DNA of 64,000 nt from Actinomycetota bacterium (GTDB lineage: Bacteria; Margulisbacteria; Marinamargulisbacteria; GCA-2716485; GCA-002719695), in the NCBI GenBank assembly GCA_002697535.1, contig NZWE01000024.1:40700-104699 (forward strand), read 5' to 3'. Shown here piece by piece: positions 14,431-64,000 of the stretch; within the stretch, counting starts at the first letter, position 1, and each line of letters begins with the position of its first letter. The position numbers and the translations under genes were made by a program. The notes under the pieces are model-generated. The model saw nothing but the letters and a program-made list of their open reading frames with translations, was not told the origin of the DNA and ran no database searches.

Positions 14431-15780
14431 ATGCAAAATACACAAAAAAAAGTTCCCGTAACAATTCTTACAGGATTTCTTGGATCAGGAAAAACCACTT
14501 TACTCAATCGCATCCTTAGTGAGAAACATGGCAAGCGTATTGCTGTTATTGAAAATGAATATGGTGAGGTAGGCATTGATCAAGGTCTGGTAATAGATGT
14601 GGAAGAAGAAATATTTGAAATGTCTAATGGGTGTATTTGTTGTACAGTGCGAGGTGATTTAATTCGGGTTCTTAGTAATCTGATGAAACGACGAGATAAG
14701 TTTGATTATGTACTGGTTGAAACAACAGGCCTTGCAGACCCAGGCCCAGTAGCACAAACCTTTTTTATGGATGATGAAATTAGCTTAGAGTTTAAGCTTG
14801 ATGGTATCGTGACTCTTGTGGATGCTTTTCACATTAATCAACAATTAGGGCGTAGTGATGAAAGTACCGAACAAATTGCATTCGCCGATGTGATTGTCTT
14901 AAATAAAATCGATCTTGTTAATAATGAGGAGCTAGATGTCCTGGAATCTCGTTTACGTAAAATGAATAAAATGGCCAAAATAGTACGTAGCGAGATGGCT
15001 GAAACTCCGATAAATACGGTTTTAAATTTAGGTGCATTTAATTTAGATGAAGCGCTAGTTCGTCGTCCAACTTTTTTAGAACCAGAGTATCCATTTGAAT
15101 GGACAGGAATCTACTCTATGGAACCCGGGCAATCTGAGATTACTCTTGCAGAAGGGCCTGACCCATCTATGTCTTTGGTTGTAGTAGCTGATCAGGGAAA
15201 AGAAGATCAAGCTTTACGTAACAGTGCAGAACGCTGTGTCCGTCTCTATTCTGAAGATGCAAAGCAAATTCAACCAGGCGAACTTATTCCACAAGATTCA
15301 CACGTCATGCTCGACTTGTCATCGTCTGGACGAAAATCGTTTTATTTGCAGACAGAAAATAAAATACAAGTGGGTCTTTTTGCTCAACATACCGCTGAAG
15401 AATTTGATATTCAAGTGTTAACAAAAGACAAAACAACTATACCAGTTGAGACTGAACGAACATGGGTGGCACAACATGAACATGATGATGAAGTGGGTTC
15501 TATCTCGATTGAAATAAATGGAGATGTAGAAGAAAAAAAATTAGAAAAATGGCTTTCTAAACTACTTGCTGAAAAAGGAATAGATATTTTTCGTATGAAA
15601 GGCTTTATCAGTATTTCTGGAGAACCTAACCGATTTATATTTCAAGGTGTTCACATGCTTTTTGATGGAAAACCAGATCGTCCATGGGGAAATTCACCAC
15701 GTCGAAACCAGCTAGTATTTATTGGTCGAAACTTGGATGAACAAGATATACGTCAAAGTTTTGAAGCTTGTTTAATATAA
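14431..15780 (+). CDS. CobW/COG0523 family GTP-binding metallochaperone
   Basis: This is a G3E-family GTPase of the kind that delivers zinc, cobalt or other metals to client enzymes. It has P-loop GFLGSGKTT (residues 15-23), the metal-binding CxCC motif in SNGCICCTVRGD (about 70-81), LVETTGLADPGPV, and NKID for guanine recognition. The CobW C-terminal domain occupies the last 95 residues (GSISIEINGDVE to the end). At 449 residues it is longer than the usual 320-400, because of about 120 residues between GTPase and C-terminal domains ending in a His/Asp-rich stretch QHEHDDE. An AAGGAAGG Shine-Dalgarno precedes the start. It is ten bases from the WD40 gene. Both genes look richer in G+C than their surroundings. 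Confidence 0.9.
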   Translation: MQNTQKKVPVTILTGFLGSGKTTLLNRILSEKHGKRIAVIENEYGEVGIDQGLVIDVEEEIFEMSNGCICCTVRGDLIRVLSNLMKRRDKFDYVLVETTGLADPGPVAQTFFMDDEISLEFKLDGIVTLVDAFHINQQLGRSDESTEQIAFADVIVLNKIDLVNNEELDVLESRLRKMNKMAKIVRSEMAETPINTVLNLGAFNLDEALVRRPTFLEPEYPFEWTGIYSMEPGQSEITLAEGPDPSMSLVVVADQGKEDQALRNSAERCVRLYSEDAKQIQPGELIPQDSHVMLDLSSSGRKSFYLQTENKIQVGLFAQHTAEEFDIQVLTKDKTTIPVETERTWVAQHEHDDEVGSISIEINGDVEEKKLEKWLSKLLAEKGIDIFRMKGFISISGEPNRFIFQGVHMLFDGKPDRPWGNSPRRNQLVFIGRNLDEQDIRQSFEACLI

Positions 15781-15790
15781 AAACTAAGAT

Positions 15791-16801
15791 ATGGCTTTAC
15801 AAAATAACTGGAATGCATCGGTAAATGATTATGCAATTTCTGGCGGTTGGAATTGTGATGGTAACTCACTTGTTGTAAGTGATGCATCTGGCGGTATCTA
15901 TGTTTTCAATGGGAAATCGGGCGAAGTTATTTGGTCACAAAAACAAGTTCATGCCGTTGGTGGACTATCAACAGCAATGCATCCATTTAAAAACAAGTTT
16001 GTTACCACAGGTCAAGATTCTCGTATTCTTATTTGGGATACCTATGAAAATAATATAATAAAAGAAATAAATTTAGGTCATGGTTGGGTAGAAAATGTCG
16101 AGTGGTCACAAGATGGAAAATGGCTTGCTGCTTCGTGTTCTCGCACTGTGTATATTTATAATGAAACTGGTGACGAAGTATGGCGATCAGATGATCACAA
16201 TAGTACAGTGAGCCAAATTGCCTGGGCAGCTAACAATGAATTAGCCACGGCATGCTATGGTAAAGTCACTTTTTTTGATGCTTTATCCGGAAAACAAACA
16301 CAAACGTTGGAATGGAAAGGATCCTTAATATCAATGGTATTAAGTCCAAATGGTGATATCGTTGCATGTGGGAGTCAGGATAATTCAGTTCATTTTTGGC
16401 GTCGCTCTACAGGTAAAGATTCGATGATGTCTGGCTATCCATTCAAACCTGATTCTCTCAGCTTTGACGAAACTGGAACATTTTTAGCAACCGGAGGGAA
16501 TGTAGATGTAACAGTTTGGAGTTTCCAGGGAAAAGGTCCGGAAGGAACCACGCCTCTCTCTTTAGAACAACACGCTGAACCCCTTACCTCGCTAGCTTTT
16601 TCTAATCGTGGGTTAAATTTAGCTTCTGGATCTCGTGATGGTACAGTCGTGTTATGGGGACTTAGAATGGATAATAAAGAAAGTGATTTAAGTGAAACCC
16701 GTCTAACGGATTCGGTTTCAAATTTGTATTGGCATCCAGATGACAAGGCGTTGGCTGCGTTAGATGGACAAGGTGTTATTACAGTTTGGCATGTTACATA
16801 A
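15791..16801 (+). CDS. WD40-repeat beta-propeller protein
   Basis: 336 residues consist of about seven WD40 blades, with clear GxDxxxxxWD-type ends such as GQDSRILIWD, GSQDNSVHFWR, GGNVDVTVWS, GSRDGTVVLWG and LDGQGVITVWH. It has no signal peptide or other domain, so it is a cytoplasmic propeller, presumably a protein-interaction partner of the CobW GTPase encoded just upstream. The partnership is inferred from the ten-base spacing. Its last 57 bases are duplicated at 18795-18859. Confidence 0.88.
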   Translation: MALQNNWNASVNDYAISGGWNCDGNSLVVSDASGGIYVFNGKSGEVIWSQKQVHAVGGLSTAMHPFKNKFVTTGQDSRILIWDTYENNIIKEINLGHGWVENVEWSQDGKWLAASCSRTVYIYNETGDEVWRSDDHNSTVSQIAWAANNELATACYGKVTFFDALSGKQTQTLEWKGSLISMVLSPNGDIVACGSQDNSVHFWRRSTGKDSMMSGYPFKPDSLSFDETGTFLATGGNVDVTVWSFQGKGPEGTTPLSLEQHAEPLTSLAFSNRGLNLASGSRDGTVVLWGLRMDNKESDLSETRLTDSVSNLYWHPDDKALAALDGQGVITVWHVT

Positions 16802-55673: not shown

Positions 55674-56693
55674 ATGAAACTTAATGACTTTAACTATCAT
55701 TTACCTCCCCATCTAATTGCGCAGTCACCTTCTGCTCATCGTGATCAAAGTCGACTGATGGTTGTTCATAAATCTACAGGTATCATTGAGCATAAATCCT
55801 TTCATCATATTATTGACTATTTAGATACAAACTCTGTTTTAGTTTTAAATAACACAAAAGTGTTTAATGCACGCTTATTTGGGTATAAAAAGACAGGTGC
55901 TCATATAGAAATGTTTTTACTTAAACAAATTGATAAGACTAAATGGTCCTGCTTACTACGTCCTGCTAAGCGTGTTTCTGTTGGTGATCGCATAATAATT
56001 TCACCTGATTTTTTTGCTACTGTCGTTGAAAAAAATGACTCTATTATTCTTGATTTCTCTTTTTCTGGTGATTTTTTCTCACTATTAGATCTCTATGGAG
56101 AACCTCCTCTTCCACCTTACATTAAACCCTCTAATGCTCAAGATTTTAAAGAACGCTATCAAACCGTTTTTGCTCAAGAACAAGGGTCTGTTGCTGCACC
56201 TACAGCAGGTCTTCACTTTTCTGATGATTTGTTAGCTGATATCCGTTCTAAAGGTATTGCTATTGACTATATTACCTTGCATGTTGGCTATGGCACTTTT
56301 AATTCTGTTACTGCTGAAAATATTGCTGATCACTATATGCATTCTGAATCTTATACCATTACTTCTGAAACTGCTTTGCGTCTTCAATCGTATCTAAAAA
56401 ATGGGAAAAAAATAGTTTCTGTTGGTACCACATCAACTCGTACATTAGAAACCGCTATCAATCACTCTACTCCTTTTTCTCCCGGAACGTTTGACTCTAA
56501 TCTTTTTATCTATCCTGGTTATTCATTTAAATGTGTTGATTCTATTATTACGAATTTTCATTTGCCAAAATCTACCTTGCTGATGCTTGTTAGTGCGTTT
56601 TCAGGCTTCCCTCTAATTAAGAAAGCCTATGAAGAAGCTATTTCTGAAGAGTATTCATTTTATAGCTTTGGTGATGCGATGTTATTATTATGA
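55674..56693 (+). CDS. queA: S-adenosylmethionine:tRNA ribosyltransferase-isomerase
   Basis: This enzyme transfers and isomerises the ribosyl part of SAM to form epoxyqueuosine in tRNA wobble positions. It has the typical start FNYHLPPHLIAQSP, VLNNTKVFNARLFGYKKTGAHIE (part VLNNTKVFNARLFG), the highly conserved EQGSVAAPTAGLHF (residues about 168-181) and TNFHLPKSTLLMLVSAF at the C-terminus. Length 339 is standard. The gene for the giant exported protein begins at its stop codon (ATGA overlap). Confidence 0.96.
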   Translation: MKLNDFNYHLPPHLIAQSPSAHRDQSRLMVVHKSTGIIEHKSFHHIIDYLDTNSVLVLNNTKVFNARLFGYKKTGAHIEMFLLKQIDKTKWSCLLRPAKRVSVGDRIIISPDFFATVVEKNDSIILDFSFSGDFFSLLDLYGEPPLPPYIKPSNAQDFKERYQTVFAQEQGSVAAPTAGLHFSDDLLADIRSKGIAIDYITLHVGYGTFNSVTAENIADHYMHSESYTITSETALRLQSYLKNGKKIVSVGTTSTRTLETAINHSTPFSPGTFDSNLFIYPGYSFKCVDSIITNFHLPKSTLLMLVSAFSGFPLIKKAYEEAISEEYSFYSFGDAMLLL

Positions 56694-59600
56694 AATCATA
56701 TTATACGTTTCTTGTTTTAATCTATTTTTTTGCTTTTGATGTCAGTACTGTTCTGTGCCAGCCCTTTCCCTTTGTTGAAGTTACTGCTACTGAATCTCTC
56801 GTTCTTCTCAATCCATACAAAGATTCCACTGCTATTTATAAAATTAAACAAGGTGATTTATTCACGTTTATCAAAAAAAAAAATGACTATATTAATATCT
56901 ACATTGAGGGCTCTAATAAAGGGTGGGTTGCTGCATCTAATGTTAATATCCAGGAATTTGATACGGTAACTACCCCATCTGTTGCAGAAAAACTAGCCGT
57001 TACTTCAGCTCCCTATTATAATTTTTCTGGACAAGAAAATTATCGATTTCCCAATCGATCTTCAAATCAAAACTTTGATATTAATAGTGATGGTTTTGTT
57101 GAAATTAAAGCAAGTGGACGAAGTTATTCTCCCTCTGATATTAACTCACCTCTATGGCAAACTATTATTAATGATCCTGTCTATAAAAAAATTCCTCGTG
57201 ACGTTTTACTTGGGCCTATTGATGTTGATACACGCTCTCGCATTAGCTTAGAAGGCAAGCTATCAGAAGATTTATTTGTTTATTATGATATTGAGCAAGA
57301 ACCTGAAATGCCGGGAAAATATGATGTTGAAATTAAATATAAAGATCATCATCTTCAGTTTTTTCACTTAAATGCTAATTATAAACAAGGAAACTATATT
57401 AATCTCAGAAAATCTCTTCGTGGCGCTCAATACCGTTTTGATGATTCTTATAATTTGTTTCAATTATCGATGGGAAAAGAGAGATCTGAATCACATAAAC
57501 TTGAAAACTTTGGTTCCGGTTCAAAAATCATAAAACTATCTCATAAATATGTCTTTCCTGGCTCTGTTAGCGTTTACGTCAATAATACAAAAAAAACAGA
57601 AGGCTCTGCTTATGAAGTTGATTACTATAATGGCACCGTTACCTTTTCTTCTCCTATTCAAAAAACTGATTATTTTAAAATTATCTATGAAGTTTCTAAT
57701 CCTATTGCCGATTATCTTCCTGTTTTAGCTCGACGTAATTTTCAAGCGATACAATACTCAGGTTCTTCTCGTTCTCTTGAATCCTTTTCCTTAATCACGT
57801 TATCTAATACGGATACATTTGTTTATAACCCAGAAAGCCCCCCTGAAATGTATCCAACATTTAATGTTTTTGTAGAGTTATCTAACACAATAAATATCAC
57901 TCAAAATATTACTACGGTTGTTCAAACATTAATTGATGTTAACGTCTTAAATTCTGATTATACCTTGTTAAATTACTTAGCGTCTTCTAATCTTAAATCT
58001 ATTTTTAATTTAACATTACCCTCTGCTGATATTTTACTCATTATTGATGAATTAGATACACTCTTTGCGAATACGGCTCTCTATCAAGAAGAACTTCTTA
58101 GTCGGTTTTCTGATGTTCAGCTTTTTCCTGATTCTTTTATAACTATTGAAGGCGTTACATTGAAAGATTCTATTGATATTTTTTATGCTTTGCTTGCTGA
58201 AAATATTTTAGACTCTCAAGGTTTTATTATCTCTAACATATTATTTCGCTCATCTCTTTTTGCTGATACATCTCCTTTTTATTATTATGATGATTCTATT
58301 CTTTTATGGATTAAATCTTTTTTTCTTGAAAAAAAACAATCCGTTCGTCCTCGCTTTCTTACATCAAAAAATCCTATTTCTCTGGGCTCTGCATCGGTTC
58401 ACTTAAATGATATTACTTTAGTCCTGAACCAAGATTTTGCTATTGATTATTCTTTAGGTATTATTTCTTTTTTAATCCCCCTTAACCAAAATGATGTTAT
58501 CGAAATTTATTATGATTATCATATACGTCAATCTTTTGTTGATGAATTTGTTGGTAAAGACTCCACGGGGCCTTATCAACTATCTCACTTTCCTGTTTTA
58601 GATGGAACGACTAAAATTTTACTTAATAATAACCTTTTAACAGAGTTAAATGACTTTATTATTGATTATGATAATGGAGAAATTTTCTTTAATTTTGATG
58701 TTGCTTATCCTTCTATTTTTACAGTCTACTATGATTATATACAACAACAAAAAGTCACTAAATCTAGTAAGGAACGTCCTTTTGATATCAGCGCTACTTA
58801 TATTAATGAGTTTGTTCCCGCGGATGATCAAGTACAAGTATTAGAAATTGTTTCAGAAAATTCTGATGTTTCTTTAGGGATCATAACCTTACTTAATAAT
58901 CCCCTTACTAATACCGATAACATCCGTATTTCTATTGATGGTGCTATACTCCCTACTGAAAATTATACGATTTCTAGTAACTATCGTTCCCAAATTCAAC
59001 TTATTAATTCCGATAGTCATCCTAATATTGAAAATGCTGTTAATGCGATTGTCTCATATGATTATCTTAAAAGTTTTCGTACTAAAGATAGTATCTCACC
59101 TCAATCTTCTTCTGGCCAAACAACTCCCTATAACATCAATGGTATTGACTATATAATTGACTATCTTCCTGTTAAATATCAAGGGATTCATTATATTACC
59201 TATCAAGGTATTAAGCTTCAAAATGAAAGTTTTGATGTGTCCTATCTAGATGATGGTATGTCATTACTTCTTACATTTTATACGTCTGATACTAAACCGG
59301 GTTCTAAGTTAGATTCCTACCCAAGCGCTCCTTTTACGATTCACTATGATTATGTTCCTCAAGAACTTGATTCTTTAGATGCCATTAAACATCATATGTT
59401 TGGAACAACAATTAAAGGTAATATTACGGATTCTTTTTCTGTTGCTGGTGAATTTGTTTATGCTGAAAATAATTTTGGTGGTCAAGTCCTTGATGGAGAA
59501 ATGTCTGATACCCAAGGCGCAGGCGCGGATAATTACTTTTATAACTTGCGACAAAAAAATATTATTGAAAATAGTGAACAAATCTTTGTTAATGATCACT

Positions 59601-62191
59601 CACAAACCCGTGATGTTGATTATATTATTATTTATAAAACGGGTTTATTTCGCTTTATCAATAAAACACCTAACTCTTCTGATACAATCTCTGCTGATTT
59701 TCAATATTCAGCAAGTTCTGGTATTCTTAATACTAACAGTAGTCAAAGCGGTTATGCTACAAACCTTAATGTAGATTACTCTATTCCTTCTTTTAATATT
59801 TCTTCTTCTTATAAATACATTGATCGTGATTTTATTCCGATTGGCACTATTAATGAAACAAAAGGAAATACTATTGTATCGTCTAAAATGAATTGGTCTA
59901 TTTCTCCTGCTGTTGATTTTTCAACTCAATATTCTCGGGAAAAACAATATCAAAATTCTACACAAGAAAATAAAGATATCTATAAGCATCTTGATATTTT
60001 CTCTGCCAATTTATCGAGTCTTCTTTTCAATACGATTGATTCATCTCAATCGTTTGATTATCGCTTTTCACTTCAAGATAAAGAGCTTTCTTTAAGTGAT
60101 AATAAATATTATCATTCTGTTGATGATTTAACTGTTTCCTATCAAAGCACCTACTCGTTTGGCCCTTCATTTTTGAAATCAAGAGTCCATCATTCCCGTT
60201 CTCGTCAACTATCAGATTATCGTGATCAAAAATTGCCAAAAACCACCAATACCAAATCATCTTCTTTTTCTTCTAATCTTAATTTATCCGATGCTTTTTT
60301 ATTACGTGTTGTTTCTATTAAGCCTTCTTATTATCACTCTTACTCTAATACACTTTTATCAGTTGCTCCTTTTTCATCTTTTAAAAACCATCATAATTTT
60401 GACTTAAAATCCTCATTTTCTCCTTTTAAATCATGGGTTTTTTCTCCTGTTTACCAACACTCCAATACCAAGCAACAAACATCTAGTAGTTCTCCTATTG
60501 CTGAAAATAACGCCATGTCTTATGGTACAACTTCTAAATATGAGCCTTTTGATTGGTTTTCAACTTATTTCTCATTTCATCATAAAGAAGATGAATCTAT
60601 TTTACTAAATCAAAAAAGTAATCTTAGTGATACTAAACAAGTATCGTTAAAACGCTTTTCCCCCCAAGCTGCCTTACTGGCCTTGGGCGTGTCACCTAAA
60701 AATTATTTTTCTTTTCTATTAAAAAATAGCAACCTTTCTTATACATACTCTGCATCTTCTCATAAAAAAAATGATCATCGTAATTTATCTTCTTCCTCAT
60801 CTAATCGTGCTAATTGGAATCAACTTACTTTTTTAAAATCGTTACGTTTACATAATTTATCTTATTCTCAATCTAATAATGCAAATGATAATTATGTTGA
60901 ATCCTCTACAGTTAGTAAAAACCACTCTTTGTCTCAAACTCAAAACCTTGGTGCTCAGTTAAGTTTTAAACCCACCTTTTTTATCTTTAAATTTTTTAAC
61001 TATAGCGGGTCTATCAAGCAATCTACCATGTCTTCTTCAGCCACAACTATTGCTCGCTCTGTTACTGGTAATCAAACTGAAGAGTCTTCTATCGAAGATT
61101 CATTATCTCACACTCTCTCTTTTTCTCCTCCACAGCTTACGATTCCTAACATCTTTAATCTCCGCAAACGTTTTCGGCTTGGAAAAGTGTCTTTATCTTT
61201 AAATTTAAAAGAGAGTACAAAAAATTTTCAACAATTTTCATACCCTTATCTTTTTTCTGAGGAAACCTTTTCTCGTCTTTCGCCTTTACTCGATATTATT
61301 GATAAATCAAACTTAAACTCTATGCTTATTTCATCGACGGCTTCTCCCTTTAACTTAATTAATATTAATGCCTCTTTAGCGATTAATGATAATTACTATA
61401 ACCGTAATAAAACATCTCAATCCCAATCTTTTTATCAAGATATTAAGAACTATACATCGTCATATTCTATATCTCCTTTTTCCTTTCTATCTTTTTCTAT
61501 CAATGCTAATCAAAGTCGTTCAACTCAATGGCTACTTCCCTCTTCTAATATTATACAAACCGAACTTATTACAACTCAAAATGAATCGTTATCATATACA
61601 AATAAATGGAGTCGCTTGTATTCCGCTTCATCAACGCTTAAACCTTTTCGCTTTTTTTCTTTAACAGGCTCTTCTTCTTATAATATTCTTAAGCAACGAG
61701 CTGGTTATCTCAATCAGCTTTCTTCATCTCAATTTAAAACAGAAACATATACAGCTAGTCTTGGTTTATACCCATTAAAATCACTCTCTATATCTGCCAG
61801 TTATTCCTTAAATAAAACAAATAATCAAGAAGGCTACTCCAACTCTCAAACTCTTTCTTATACCCCTGTTAAAACAACCTATGCTAATGTCTCTATTTCT
61901 TATACTCGTAATCATTACTTGGGATTTGGTATTAATCAAGTTTCATTAAACAACCAAGAACAAGGAGATAATACCATTGGTGAAACAAAAACTGTAAAGC
62001 GAAATTATGTTGTTCAGAATGGATCCTTAAATATCTCACTCTCATTTCCTATTAATAACGCGTATGTTCAAAAGTTTACCCTAACAGGCGAAGGTTATCT
62101 TAAAGATATCAAAGATCACCTGGAAACGGATGATAACCCTCTTAGTTATGCGATTTCCGGCCTTGTTTTAAAAGGATCTCTTTCTTTATAA
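56690..62191 (+). CDS. Giant exported protein: SH3b domain, six plug-like repeats, Ser-rich putative beta-barrel
   Basis: The 1833-residue protein starts with a signal peptide (residues 1-23) and an SH3b-like domain (about 28-88; ends KGWVAASNVNI). An unrecognised region follows (90-290), then six degenerate copies of a beta-unit with the pattern V-x-x-N-x-x-x-L-x-x-x-x-D-[YF]-x-[IV]-D-Y-x-x-G-x-[IV]-x-F...I-x-Y-x-Y. The final 800 residues alternate polar and hydrophobic residues over dozens of short strands, very rich in Ser, Asn and Tyr, with no further signal, as a very large outer-membrane barrel would. The combination recalls SprA, the giant barrel of the type IX secretion system, but relationship is not shown. 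It is coupled to queA. Confidence 0.7.
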   Translation: MKSYYTFLVLIYFFAFDVSTVLCQPFPFVEVTATESLVLLNPYKDSTAIYKIKQGDLFTFIKKKNDYINIYIEGSNKGWVAASNVNIQEFDTVTTPSVAEKLAVTSAPYYNFSGQENYRFPNRSSNQNFDINSDGFVEIKASGRSYSPSDINSPLWQTIINDPVYKKIPRDVLLGPIDVDTRSRISLEGKLSEDLFVYYDIEQEPEMPGKYDVEIKYKDHHLQFFHLNANYKQGNYINLRKSLRGAQYRFDDSYNLFQLSMGKERSESHKLENFGSGSKIIKLSHKYVFPGSVSVYVNNTKKTEGSAYEVDYYNGTVTFSSPIQKTDYFKIIYEVSNPIADYLPVLARRNFQAIQYSGSSRSLESFSLITLSNTDTFVYNPESPPEMYPTFNVFVELSNTINITQNITTVVQTLIDVNVLNSDYTLLNYLASSNLKSIFNLTLPSADILLIIDELDTLFANTALYQEELLSRFSDVQLFPDSFITIEGVTLKDSIDIFYALLAENILDSQGFIISNILFRSSLFADTSPFYYYDDSILLWIKSFFLEKKQSVRPRFLTSKNPISLGSASVHLNDITLVLNQDFAIDYSLGIISFLIPLNQNDVIEIYYDYHIRQSFVDEFVGKDSTGPYQLSHFPVLDGTTKILLNNNLLTELNDFIIDYDNGEIFFNFDVAYPSIFTVYYDYIQQQKVTKSSKERPFDISATYINEFVPADDQVQVLEIVSENSDVSLGIITLLNNPLTNTDNIRISIDGAILPTENYTISSNYRSQIQLINSDSHPNIENAVNAIVSYDYLKSFRTKDSISPQSSSGQTTPYNINGIDYIIDYLPVKYQGIHYITYQGIKLQNESFDVSYLDDGMSLLLTFYTSDTKPGSKLDSYPSAPFTIHYDYVPQELDSLDAIKHHMFGTTIKGNITDSFSVAGEFVYAENNFGGQVLDGEMSDTQGAGADNYFYNLRQKNIIENSEQIFVNDHSQTRDVDYIIIYKTGLFRFINKTPNSSDTISADFQYSASSGILNTNSSQSGYATNLNVDYSIPSFNISSSYKYIDRDFIPIGTINETKGNTIVSSKMNWSISPAVDFSTQYSREKQYQNSTQENKDIYKHLDIFSANLSSLLFNTIDSSQSFDYRFSLQDKELSLSDNKYYHSVDDLTVSYQSTYSFGPSFLKSRVHHSRSRQLSDYRDQKLPKTTNTKSSSFSSNLNLSDAFLLRVVSIKPSYYHSYSNTLLSVAPFSSFKNHHNFDLKSSFSPFKSWVFSPVYQHSNTKQQTSSSSPIAENNAMSYGTTSKYEPFDWFSTYFSFHHKEDESILLNQKSNLSDTKQVSLKRFSPQAALLALGVSPKNYFSFLLKNSNLSYTYSASSHKKNDHRNLSSSSSNRANWNQLTFLKSLRLHNLSYSQSNNANDNYVESSTVSKNHSLSQTQNLGAQLSFKPTFFIFKFFNYSGSIKQSTMSSSATTIARSVTGNQTEESSIEDSLSHTLSFSPPQLTIPNIFNLRKRFRLGKVSLSLNLKESTKNFQQFSYPYLFSEETFSRLSPLLDIIDKSNLNSMLISSTASPFNLININASLAINDNYYNRNKTSQSQSFYQDIKNYTSSYSISPFSFLSFSINANQSRSTQWLLPSSNIIQTELITTQNESLSYTNKWSRLYSASSTLKPFRFFSLTGSSSYNILKQRAGYLNQLSSSQFKTETYTASLGLYPLKSLSISASYSLNKTNNQEGYSNSQTLSYTPVKTTYANVSISYTRNHYLGFGINQVSLNNQEQGDNTIGETKTVKRNYVVQNGSLNISLSFPINNAYVQKFTLTGEGYLKDIKDHLETDDNPLSYAISGLVLKGSLSL
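57561..57700 (+). repeat. Plug-like repeat unit 1 in the giant protein
   Basis: Encodes SVSVYVNNTKKTEGSAYEV, then DYYNGTVTFSSP and IIYEV. It is the first of six units with spacing N-x-x-x-L/K...D-Y-x-x-G-x-[VI]-x-F. Units 2 and 3 are the closest to consensus; units 4 to 6 are looser. Confidence 0.7.
58381..58525 (+). repeat. Plug-like repeat unit 2
   Basis: Encodes SVHLNDITLVLNQDFAIDYS, then LGIISFLIPLNQNDVIEIYY, ending YDY. Confidence 0.75.
58600..58740 (+). repeat. Plug-like repeat unit 3
   Basis: Encodes KILLNNNLLTELNDFIIDYD, then NGEIFFNF and FTVYYDY. With unit 2 it defines the consensus. Confidence 0.75.
58910..59070 (+). repeat. Plug-like repeat unit 4 (degenerate)
   Basis: Encodes IRISIDGAILPTENYTISSN, then a longer loop and AIVSYDYLKSF. 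The central D-Y-x-x-G is lost. Confidence 0.5.
59180..59355 (+). repeat. Plug-like repeat unit 5 (degenerate, longer loop)
   Basis: Encodes HYITYQGIKLQNESFDVSYL, then DDGMSLLLTF and, after an insertion, FTIHYDYVPQ. Confidence 0.55.
59565..59712 (+). repeat. Plug-like repeat unit 6
   Basis: Encodes EQIFVNDHSQTRDVDYIIIY, then KTGLFRFINKTP and ISADFQYSAS. It directly precedes the Ser-rich barrel-like half. Confidence 0.55.
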
Positions 62192-62239
62192 CTTTATCCT
62201 TTCTTTTGATTTATTATTCTCTTTTTTTTTGCTATATCA

Positions 62240-62245
62240 TACACT
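62240..62245 (+). promoter_or_regulatory. -10 box of a probable leaderless promoter (amidase)
   Basis: TACACT at 62240-62245 ends seven bases before the ATG at 62253 and only one base before an upstream in-frame ATG at 62247. The geometry favours 62253 as the start. Confidence 0.5.
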
Positions 62246-62252
62246 AATGATT

Positions 62253-64000
62253 ATGTTTTCTTGTTTTATTCGTTACCTTGTTTTTTTCTTTTTCTTGTTT
62301 TCCTTTTCGAATTTTTCTTTTTCTCAACCTTCTGAATGGTTTCCTACTCTCAATACGACGACTTCTGCTTATAAATTAACAAAACCGATTATAACCAAAA
62401 ATCAGGCTTCGTTTGTTCCTTTAGTTGAACTTAAGTCACTATTTGGTTTTCGTGTTTCGTTTAACCACAAACTATCTGGTTACCTCTTCAAAAAAGGTGA
62501 TCTCTCTCTCTTCTTTCCTACTAATTCCTCTGAAGTATGGTTAAACCATTCAAAACACTTTCTATCTCAGCCTTCTTTTTTTGATAATTCATGTTTATAT
62601 ATTCCTTTAGCTGACTTTGCTTTATTACTTGGTTACTCCATTACAAAAACAGAGCATTCTATTTTTTTTACTCCTTCTAAATCCTATTCGTTTTCCTCTT
62701 CTTCTCCTCTCGTATCGTTTCAAAAACGGCATGTTGATTCTACTCTGTTAAAATTTAAAGATCTGTCCTCTATTTCTCATGTTTTGTATAAACACAAGCA
62801 TATTAAACTTTCTCAATCGCTTCATGATATTAACTCTATAACTTATATTGATCCTACTTTATTTTTTTCAACATTAGGCTATAAAAAAACCATATCTAAA
62901 AAGGGTATACGATTATCTTATAATGATATCTCGTATTTTATTCCCTTTTCTTCTCGTATTTGGTCTATTACCATCAATAATCAAACATCTCATTTTCTTT
63001 CTGAAGCACCTCTTATTCAAAAACAATCATTATTATTTCCGCTCTCTTCTCTTCTTTCATTTTTAGACTATTCGCTTCATCATAATTTTGTTACATCTTC
63101 TTTGGAACTTCTTGATAATATTCATGGCATTTCACTCCAAGGCGTGGCCGATCCTTTTTCTATTAAAATTCTATCTCGTCATACCTTATTAACTGATTTT
63201 GATGTAAATTCTTCACTTGGTTTTATTCAGGTTTTTAATATTCCATTTTCAGTTATATATGCACCTTCATCCATAACCCCCCACGCAAACCCTTATGTTT
63301 CTAAACTGTCCACCCGCCCTCTCAATTATACCTTTGAACAAATGCATGCTAACCCTAAATTAATGGGGAAAAAACAAACAGAAATTACGCTTCATTTAAC
63401 AAATAAAGCTTCCTTTTATCCTCATTCTCACCCTAATGGCTTATTTTTATCTCAAAATAAAATTCTTGAAAAATTCTCCATTAAAGAAAATTCTAGAATG
63501 TATCGAATTACCATCTCTGGCTTCGATATAGATTCTCCTGCTATCATCAAAGAGTCTGGTAAACTTATTTTTGATTTTCCTAATACGATTACCCTTCTTA
63601 ACCCACTCAAGCGTATTAATGATTCTAATTTTCGTTCTATTCGCACATCGCAACTTTCTTTTGCTCCCCTAGTTTCTCGTTTTGTTTTAGATTTTAATAC
63701 AAAAATTCCTACTTATTCTATTGAAAAAAAGAAACATAATTACATTATTACCTTTAAAAAAAGTAAAGCGCCTATTGTTGCTAAATCATCAAAACAAAAA
63801 TCTAAATCTACCACTCGTTCTATTCGTAATAAAGTTATTATTCTTGATGCAGGGCATGGTGGTCGTGATCCAGGGGCTATTTCTGGCAAATCTTTTTATG
63901 AAAAAAAATATACTCTTGATGTGGTTAATCGGGTGAAAAACATGTTAGAAAAAGAAGGAGCTTACGTTATTTTAACGCGTAATGGTGATTATACTCGTAG
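62253..64000 (+). CDS. N-acetylmuramoyl-L-alanine amidase, 3' end beyond the window
   Basis: A reading frame of 582 codons runs off the right edge. Residues 1-24 form a signal peptide (MFSCFIRYLVFFFFLFSFSN). Two copies of a copper-amine-oxidase-N-like/SLH-type small beta domain follow (about 40-150 and 165-280), then an AMIN-like beta domain (about 365-470). The Amidase_3 zinc domain begins at about 527 with VIILDAGHGGRDPGAISG, where His and the later Glu (FYEKKYTLDV) are zinc ligands. The enzyme would cut the peptide from glycan in periplasmic peptidoglycan during cell separation. The last zinc ligand and the catalytic Glu lie outside the window. Confidence 0.9.
   Translation, partial: MFSCFIRYLVFFFFLFSFSNFSFSQPSEWFPTLNTTTSAYKLTKPIITKNQASFVPLVELKSLFGFRVSFNHKLSGYLFKKGDLSLFFPTNSSEVWLNHSKHFLSQPSFFDNSCLYIPLADFALLLGYSITKTEHSIFFTPSKSYSFSSSSPLVSFQKRHVDSTLLKFKDLSSISHVLYKHKHIKLSQSLHDINSITYIDPTLFFSTLGYKKTISKKGIRLSYNDISYFIPFSSRIWSITINNQTSHFLSEAPLIQKQSLLFPLSSLLSFLDYSLHHNFVTSSLELLDNIHGISLQGVADPFSIKILSRHTLLTDFDVNSSLGFIQVFNIPFSVIYAPSSITPHANPYVSKLSTRPLNYTFEQMHANPKLMGKKQTEITLHLTNKASFYPHSHPNGLFLSQNKILEKFSIKENSRMYRITISGFDIDSPAIIKESGKLIFDFPNTITLLNPLKRINDSNFRSIRTSQLSFAPLVSRFVLDFNTKIPTYSIEKKKHNYIITFKKSKAPIVAKSSKQKSKSTTRSIRNKVIILDAGHGGRDPGAISGKSFYEKKYTLDVVNRVKNMLEKEGAYVILTRNGDYTR

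Follow-up and report, generated by a model that had tools for sequence, protein, structure and literature searches.

A giant protein of 1833 aa encoded in a genome of Ca. Marinamargulisbacterium (phylum Margulisiibacteriota) is best explained, with fairly good confidence, as a SprA-like outer-membrane translocon of a motor-less export pathway resembling type IX secretion (T9SS) outside the FCB superphylum. The protein occurs in 71 of 74 genomes of the phylum and in 34 of 34 that are at least 90% complete. About 35 long antiparallel strands are predicted in its C-terminal part, and for its N-terminal half the four best fold matches in the PDB are all SprA, although with low TM-scores. Additionally, the same genomes carry T9SS-type C-terminal sorting domains (CTDs) and PorV-family proteins, which are often encoded side by side. 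The pathway is read as working like the T9SS core; however, it fails membership tests for canonical T9SS, as curated SprA profiles are not matched at their cut-offs and the motor and sortase families tested were not found.

The gene, its repeats and its conservation

The gene was identified in a 64,000-nucleotide stretch of DNA (the window), which lies in a genome of 1.57 Mb in 33 contigs, 76% complete. A scan of genome contigs with the single protein found nothing, whereas an alignment of the class showed that near relatives with public names are Candidatus Marinamargulisbacteria and Margulisiibacteriota, the phylum described as sister to Cyanobacteria (PMC6784892). The open reading frame begins with ATG, and homologues of 61-65% identity have the same length. 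The features of the locus are as follows.

55674..56693 (+), upstream gene, overlapping the start of the giant gene by 4 bases, which appears QueA-like; conserved neighbour in the class
56690..62191 (+), SprA-like giant outer-membrane protein gene, 1833 aa
56690..56761 (+), signal-peptide-like N-terminus (residues ~1-24), with similar hydrophobic N-termini in homologues
56819..56944 (+), weak bacterial SH3-like stretch (residues 44-85), lineage-specific
57077..57775 (+), most conserved domain (residues ~130-362; G-L-x-E-x-L..YDIEQEPD.P.KYDV..K.LNG..RS, then repeat 1)
57545..57694 (+), repeat 1 (residues 286-335), with a weak DUF2460 match at 285-327
57776..58351 (+), variable insert (residues 363-554), short or missing in most homologues, helical, with low pLDDT (<50 at 273-346 of the modelled fragment)
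58385..58525 (+), repeat 2 (residues 566-612)
58589..58744 (+), repeat 3 (residues 634-685)
58892..59074 (+), repeat 4 (residues 735-795)
59168..59359 (+), repeat 5 (residues 827-890)
59558..59719 (+), repeat 6 (residues 957-1010)
59741..62188 (+), predicted barrel domain of ~35 long antiparallel strands (residues 1018-1833), ending in the C-terminal strand KGSLSL (KGTLNF in most homologues)
62229..64000 (+), N-acetylmuramoyl-L-alanine amidase gene (709 aa, running off the window), with Cu_amine_oxidN1-like, weak AMIN and Amidase_3 domains; conserved neighbour in Marinamargulisbacteria, its link to the channel being inferred only

There is no internal anchor, and the protein is free of cysteine after residue 29. 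The last ~815 residues are 19% Ser. The six repeats named in the original prediction are real. Profile-profile comparison of repeat 1 with repeats 2/3 gives E 8e-18 and with repeat 6 gives 5e-16. A loose motif occurs 6 times against 0.71 on average in shuffled protein (0 of 5000 shuffles reach 6), though one of the six hits (274-297) is not a repeat start. In contrast, the SH3b domain claimed in the same prediction is weak, since PF08239 matches with E 0.005, below cut-off, and is seen in only 2 of 26 family members. Laminin_G_2 and DUF2460 matches were rejected as domain assignments because they are isolated and below cut-off, the latter reflecting a short beta module shared with phage tail proteins.

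A protein search of 56 relatives found homologues in 52, and in all 29 that are at least 90% complete; the larger counts given above were obtained with a family profile. Full-length members are mostly 1330-1860 aa, and the most conserved part is residues ~130-362, not the repeats alone. A second, shorter paralogue family of ~890-1030 aa, preceded by an NHL-repeat-like gene, was noticed in other Margulisiibacteriota (loci L068 4038-6698, L069 5283-8378, L070 6644-9748 and L071 5527-8517) and is homologous to the window protein along its length (hhalign probability 100).

Predicted structure and relation to SprA

AlphaFold2 modelling of residues 640-1833 gives a mean pLDDT of 83, mostly >85 in the barrel domain, with about 35 long antiparallel strands from residue 1019 to 1832. 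Residues 111-1250 give pLDDT 74, with further strands between the repeat modules. As the protein was modelled in two fragments with pTM 0.51 and 0.49, closure of the barrel is only inferred. Of 37 homologues, 32 end in Phe and four in Leu, as outer-membrane barrels do. In a Foldseek search against 350,542 PDB chains, the N-terminal fragment has 8gl8, 8gl6, 6h3i and 6h3j (all SprA) as ranks 1-4 (E 7e-10 to 5e-6), followed by an unrelated phage protein at 2.8e-5. The C-terminal fragment matches many barrels, with SprA at ranks 2, 4, 6 and 15; the SprA alignments span ~1560-2080 columns while most other barrels span 550-1300. TM-scores to SprA are 0.08-0.24, so this is evidence of a shared local build, not a superposition.

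The sequence relation to SprA is weaker. The SprA profile TIGR04189 matches the family in 42 of 56 genomes and in 0 of 14 controls, but none of the hits is over 200 bits and the curated cut-off is never reached; 10 of 26 members match, with a best E of 1.8e-15. The matched stretch (profile ~584-717) is the repeat module, the D-Y..G-x-I-x-F module, which also matches phage distal tail proteins (DUF2460/TIGR02217) in 21 of 26 members. It is not SprA-specific, so this match alone would not prove common descent. SprA_N (PF14349) was not seen in scans of the members, nor in the window's own genome, where controls were also silent. PDB sequence searches with the protein, the family profile, the N-terminal domain profile and the paralogue profile found no SprA, and hits such as mCherry and phosphatase are chance.

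Carrier and cargo genes in the same genomes

The original prediction noted that the region lacks other T9SS genes, which is true of the window but not of the genome, as PorV-family and CTD genes are scattered on other contigs. Por_Secre_tail (PF18962) is found in 43 of 56 genomes, 21 over cut-off, and a CTD profile built from the phylum finds 2-22 copies in each of the 56, although CTD-like tails also match FlgD_ig. PorV_fam (NF033709) is found in 55 of 56 genomes, 34 over cut-off and the own genome included, with up to 20 copies. Some PorV-family proteins carry C-terminal TPR-like extensions (L121 3006-4265 and others) and many are ~600 aa long, so carriers may be fused to further domains.

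Interestingly, these genes are paired far more often than expected. Of 81 listed PF18962 hits, 14 lie within 1.5 kb of a listed PorV hit, with 0.5 expected. Leaving out rows chosen for adjacency, 40 of 139 listed CTD hits have PorV directly downstream on the same strand and one upstream, with about 1.3 expected. In 13 genomes of other classes, a subtilase with such a tail lies within 0.5 kb of the SprA-like gene, convergent to it, and one of these passes the TIGR04183 cut-off. In the window's own class the gene does not sit beside CTD or PorV genes. However, the own genome (G000) has two subtilase-CTD/PorV pairs: on contig C19 a subtilase with a CTD-like tail overlaps a PorV_fam gene (91.9 bits, cut-off 90), and on contig C1 a PorQ/PorV-like gene overlaps a subtilase with TIGR04183.

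Apart from these partners, the T9SS motor and sortase families tested were not found. GldL was found in 0 of 56 genomes and GldM in 3 of 56, weakly only; no control genome gave a signal, so remote forms remain possible. The PorU-type C25 sortase (PF01364) was found in only 2 of 56, as isolated C25 (gingipain/PorU-type) peptidase domains (G031:C19:23121-24188 and G046:C211:343-1416, in two genomes of the phylum). LptD (PF04453) is absent from all 56 genomes, while E. coli and Caulobacter controls give a signal.

Interpretation of the predicted channel

The central idea of the original prediction, a giant SprA-like outer-membrane channel, is supported. In the favoured explanation, the protein is exported by Sec and inserted as a very large beta-barrel whose strands are interrupted by repeated beta modules. 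It would pass Sec-exported proteins with a T9SS-type CTD, such as subtilases and large surface proteins, from periplasm to surface, and PorV-family barrels, encoded downstream of many CTD genes, would act as dedicated carriers that dock at the channel and take cargo away. Structural work describes SprA as a 36-strand barrel with a lateral opening across which PorV binds, and cargo bound to PorV in the pore (PMC10994853). For the present protein, the lateral gate, interaction with PorV, transport itself and the energy source are inferred. As the GldLM motor and C25 sortase families were not detected, energisation and cargo processing would differ from Bacteroidota.

Compared to SprA/Sov (TIGR04189; PDB 6H3I, 6H3J, 8GL6, 8GL8), a giant single-chain barrel of about 36 strands with inserted beta modules, the family is shorter (1330-1860 aa against a 2319-position profile) and lies outside the FCB superphylum. 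With the Bacteroidota T9SS it shares a translocon-like barrel, PorV/PorQ-family barrels and type A-like CTDs on secreted proteases, but carriers are multiplied and encoded beside cargo. PorP/SprF carriers paired with type B CTD substrates in Bacteroidota are likewise dedicated carriers associated with a CTD substrate; here, in searches that did not include PorP_SprF, the carriers belong to PorV_fam and the CTDs look type A-like. Deinococcus SlpA/SDBC is also a very large outer-membrane barrel in a non-proteobacterial diderm, but its SLH and coiled-coil tether are absent here.

Several other explanations were considered less likely. A giant barrel of SprA-like build could do another job, for example as a porin or surface scaffold, while the CTD/PorV pairs use a different channel or are surface proteins without type IX export. 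The SprA relation below curated cut-offs, the QueA-like and amidase neighbours in the window's class in place of cargo, and a second paralogous barrel of ~900-1030 aa in related genomes would be in keeping with this. Nevertheless it is considered unlikely, given the CTD subtilases next to the channel gene in 13 genomes and the co-occurrence of CTD and PorV genes with it in nearly every genome. An S-layer or envelope-tethering barrel like SlpA/SDBC, which holds the outer membrane and binds peptidoglycan, is suggested by SlpA/SDBC chains among the Foldseek hits, the cell-wall amidase neighbour and the weak SH3b. It appears very unlikely, since SlpA E-values are weaker than those of SprA for the N-terminal half (1.5e-4 against 7e-10), no SLH domain was found, and SH3b is missing in most members.

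A lipopolysaccharide-inserting barrel standing in for LptD is even more doubtful. The absence of LptD from the 56 genomes, LptD structures among the barrel hits and the phylum-wide conservation speak in its favour, but no OstA/LptD domain match was found in the protein, LptD ranks below SprA for both fragments, and the CTD neighbour is left unexplained. The least likely is an Ig-like adhesin fibre without a barrel. Repeated beta modules and the Ser-rich C-terminus would fit such a fibre; however, long amphipathic hairpins at high pLDDT, the C-terminal Phe signature and barrel folds as top matches indicate otherwise, and no adhesin homologue appeared.

T9SS has been stated to be restricted to Bacteroidetes (PMC4793230), or possibly present in other FCB phyla but absent elsewhere (PMC11285876), and SprA is called FCB-specific (PMC12611786). 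No report of type IX components in Margulisiibacteriota was found in a literature search that did not cover most subscription papers or bioRxiv preprints; the placozoan-symbiont paper has no mention of type IX, and the hydrogen-metabolism paper on Margulisbacteria has no mention of secretion. A SprA-like translocon with CTD cargo and PorV carriers in a phylum near Cyanobacteria would widen the known range of this pathway, raise the question of a deep origin or ancient transfer, and offer a natural test of whether the translocon-carrier-CTD core can work without the GldLM motor. It also gives a functional reading to a protein present in every well-assembled genome of an uncultured phylum. It seems slightly more likely than not that Margulisiibacteriota run a phylum-wide export pathway built from a SprA-like translocon and many PorV-type carriers often encoded beside their own CTD cargo, with no GldLM motor or PorU sortase, which would be a simpler relative of T9SS outside the FCB superphylum with a different energy source. 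Additionally, CTD-type tails were observed on open frames of 16989, 10112 and 6967 residues (G028:C3 ~61361-61663, G011:C40 ~100020-100271 and G031:C26 ~15642-15929, in genomes of the phylum), possibly giant surface proteins exported by this route.
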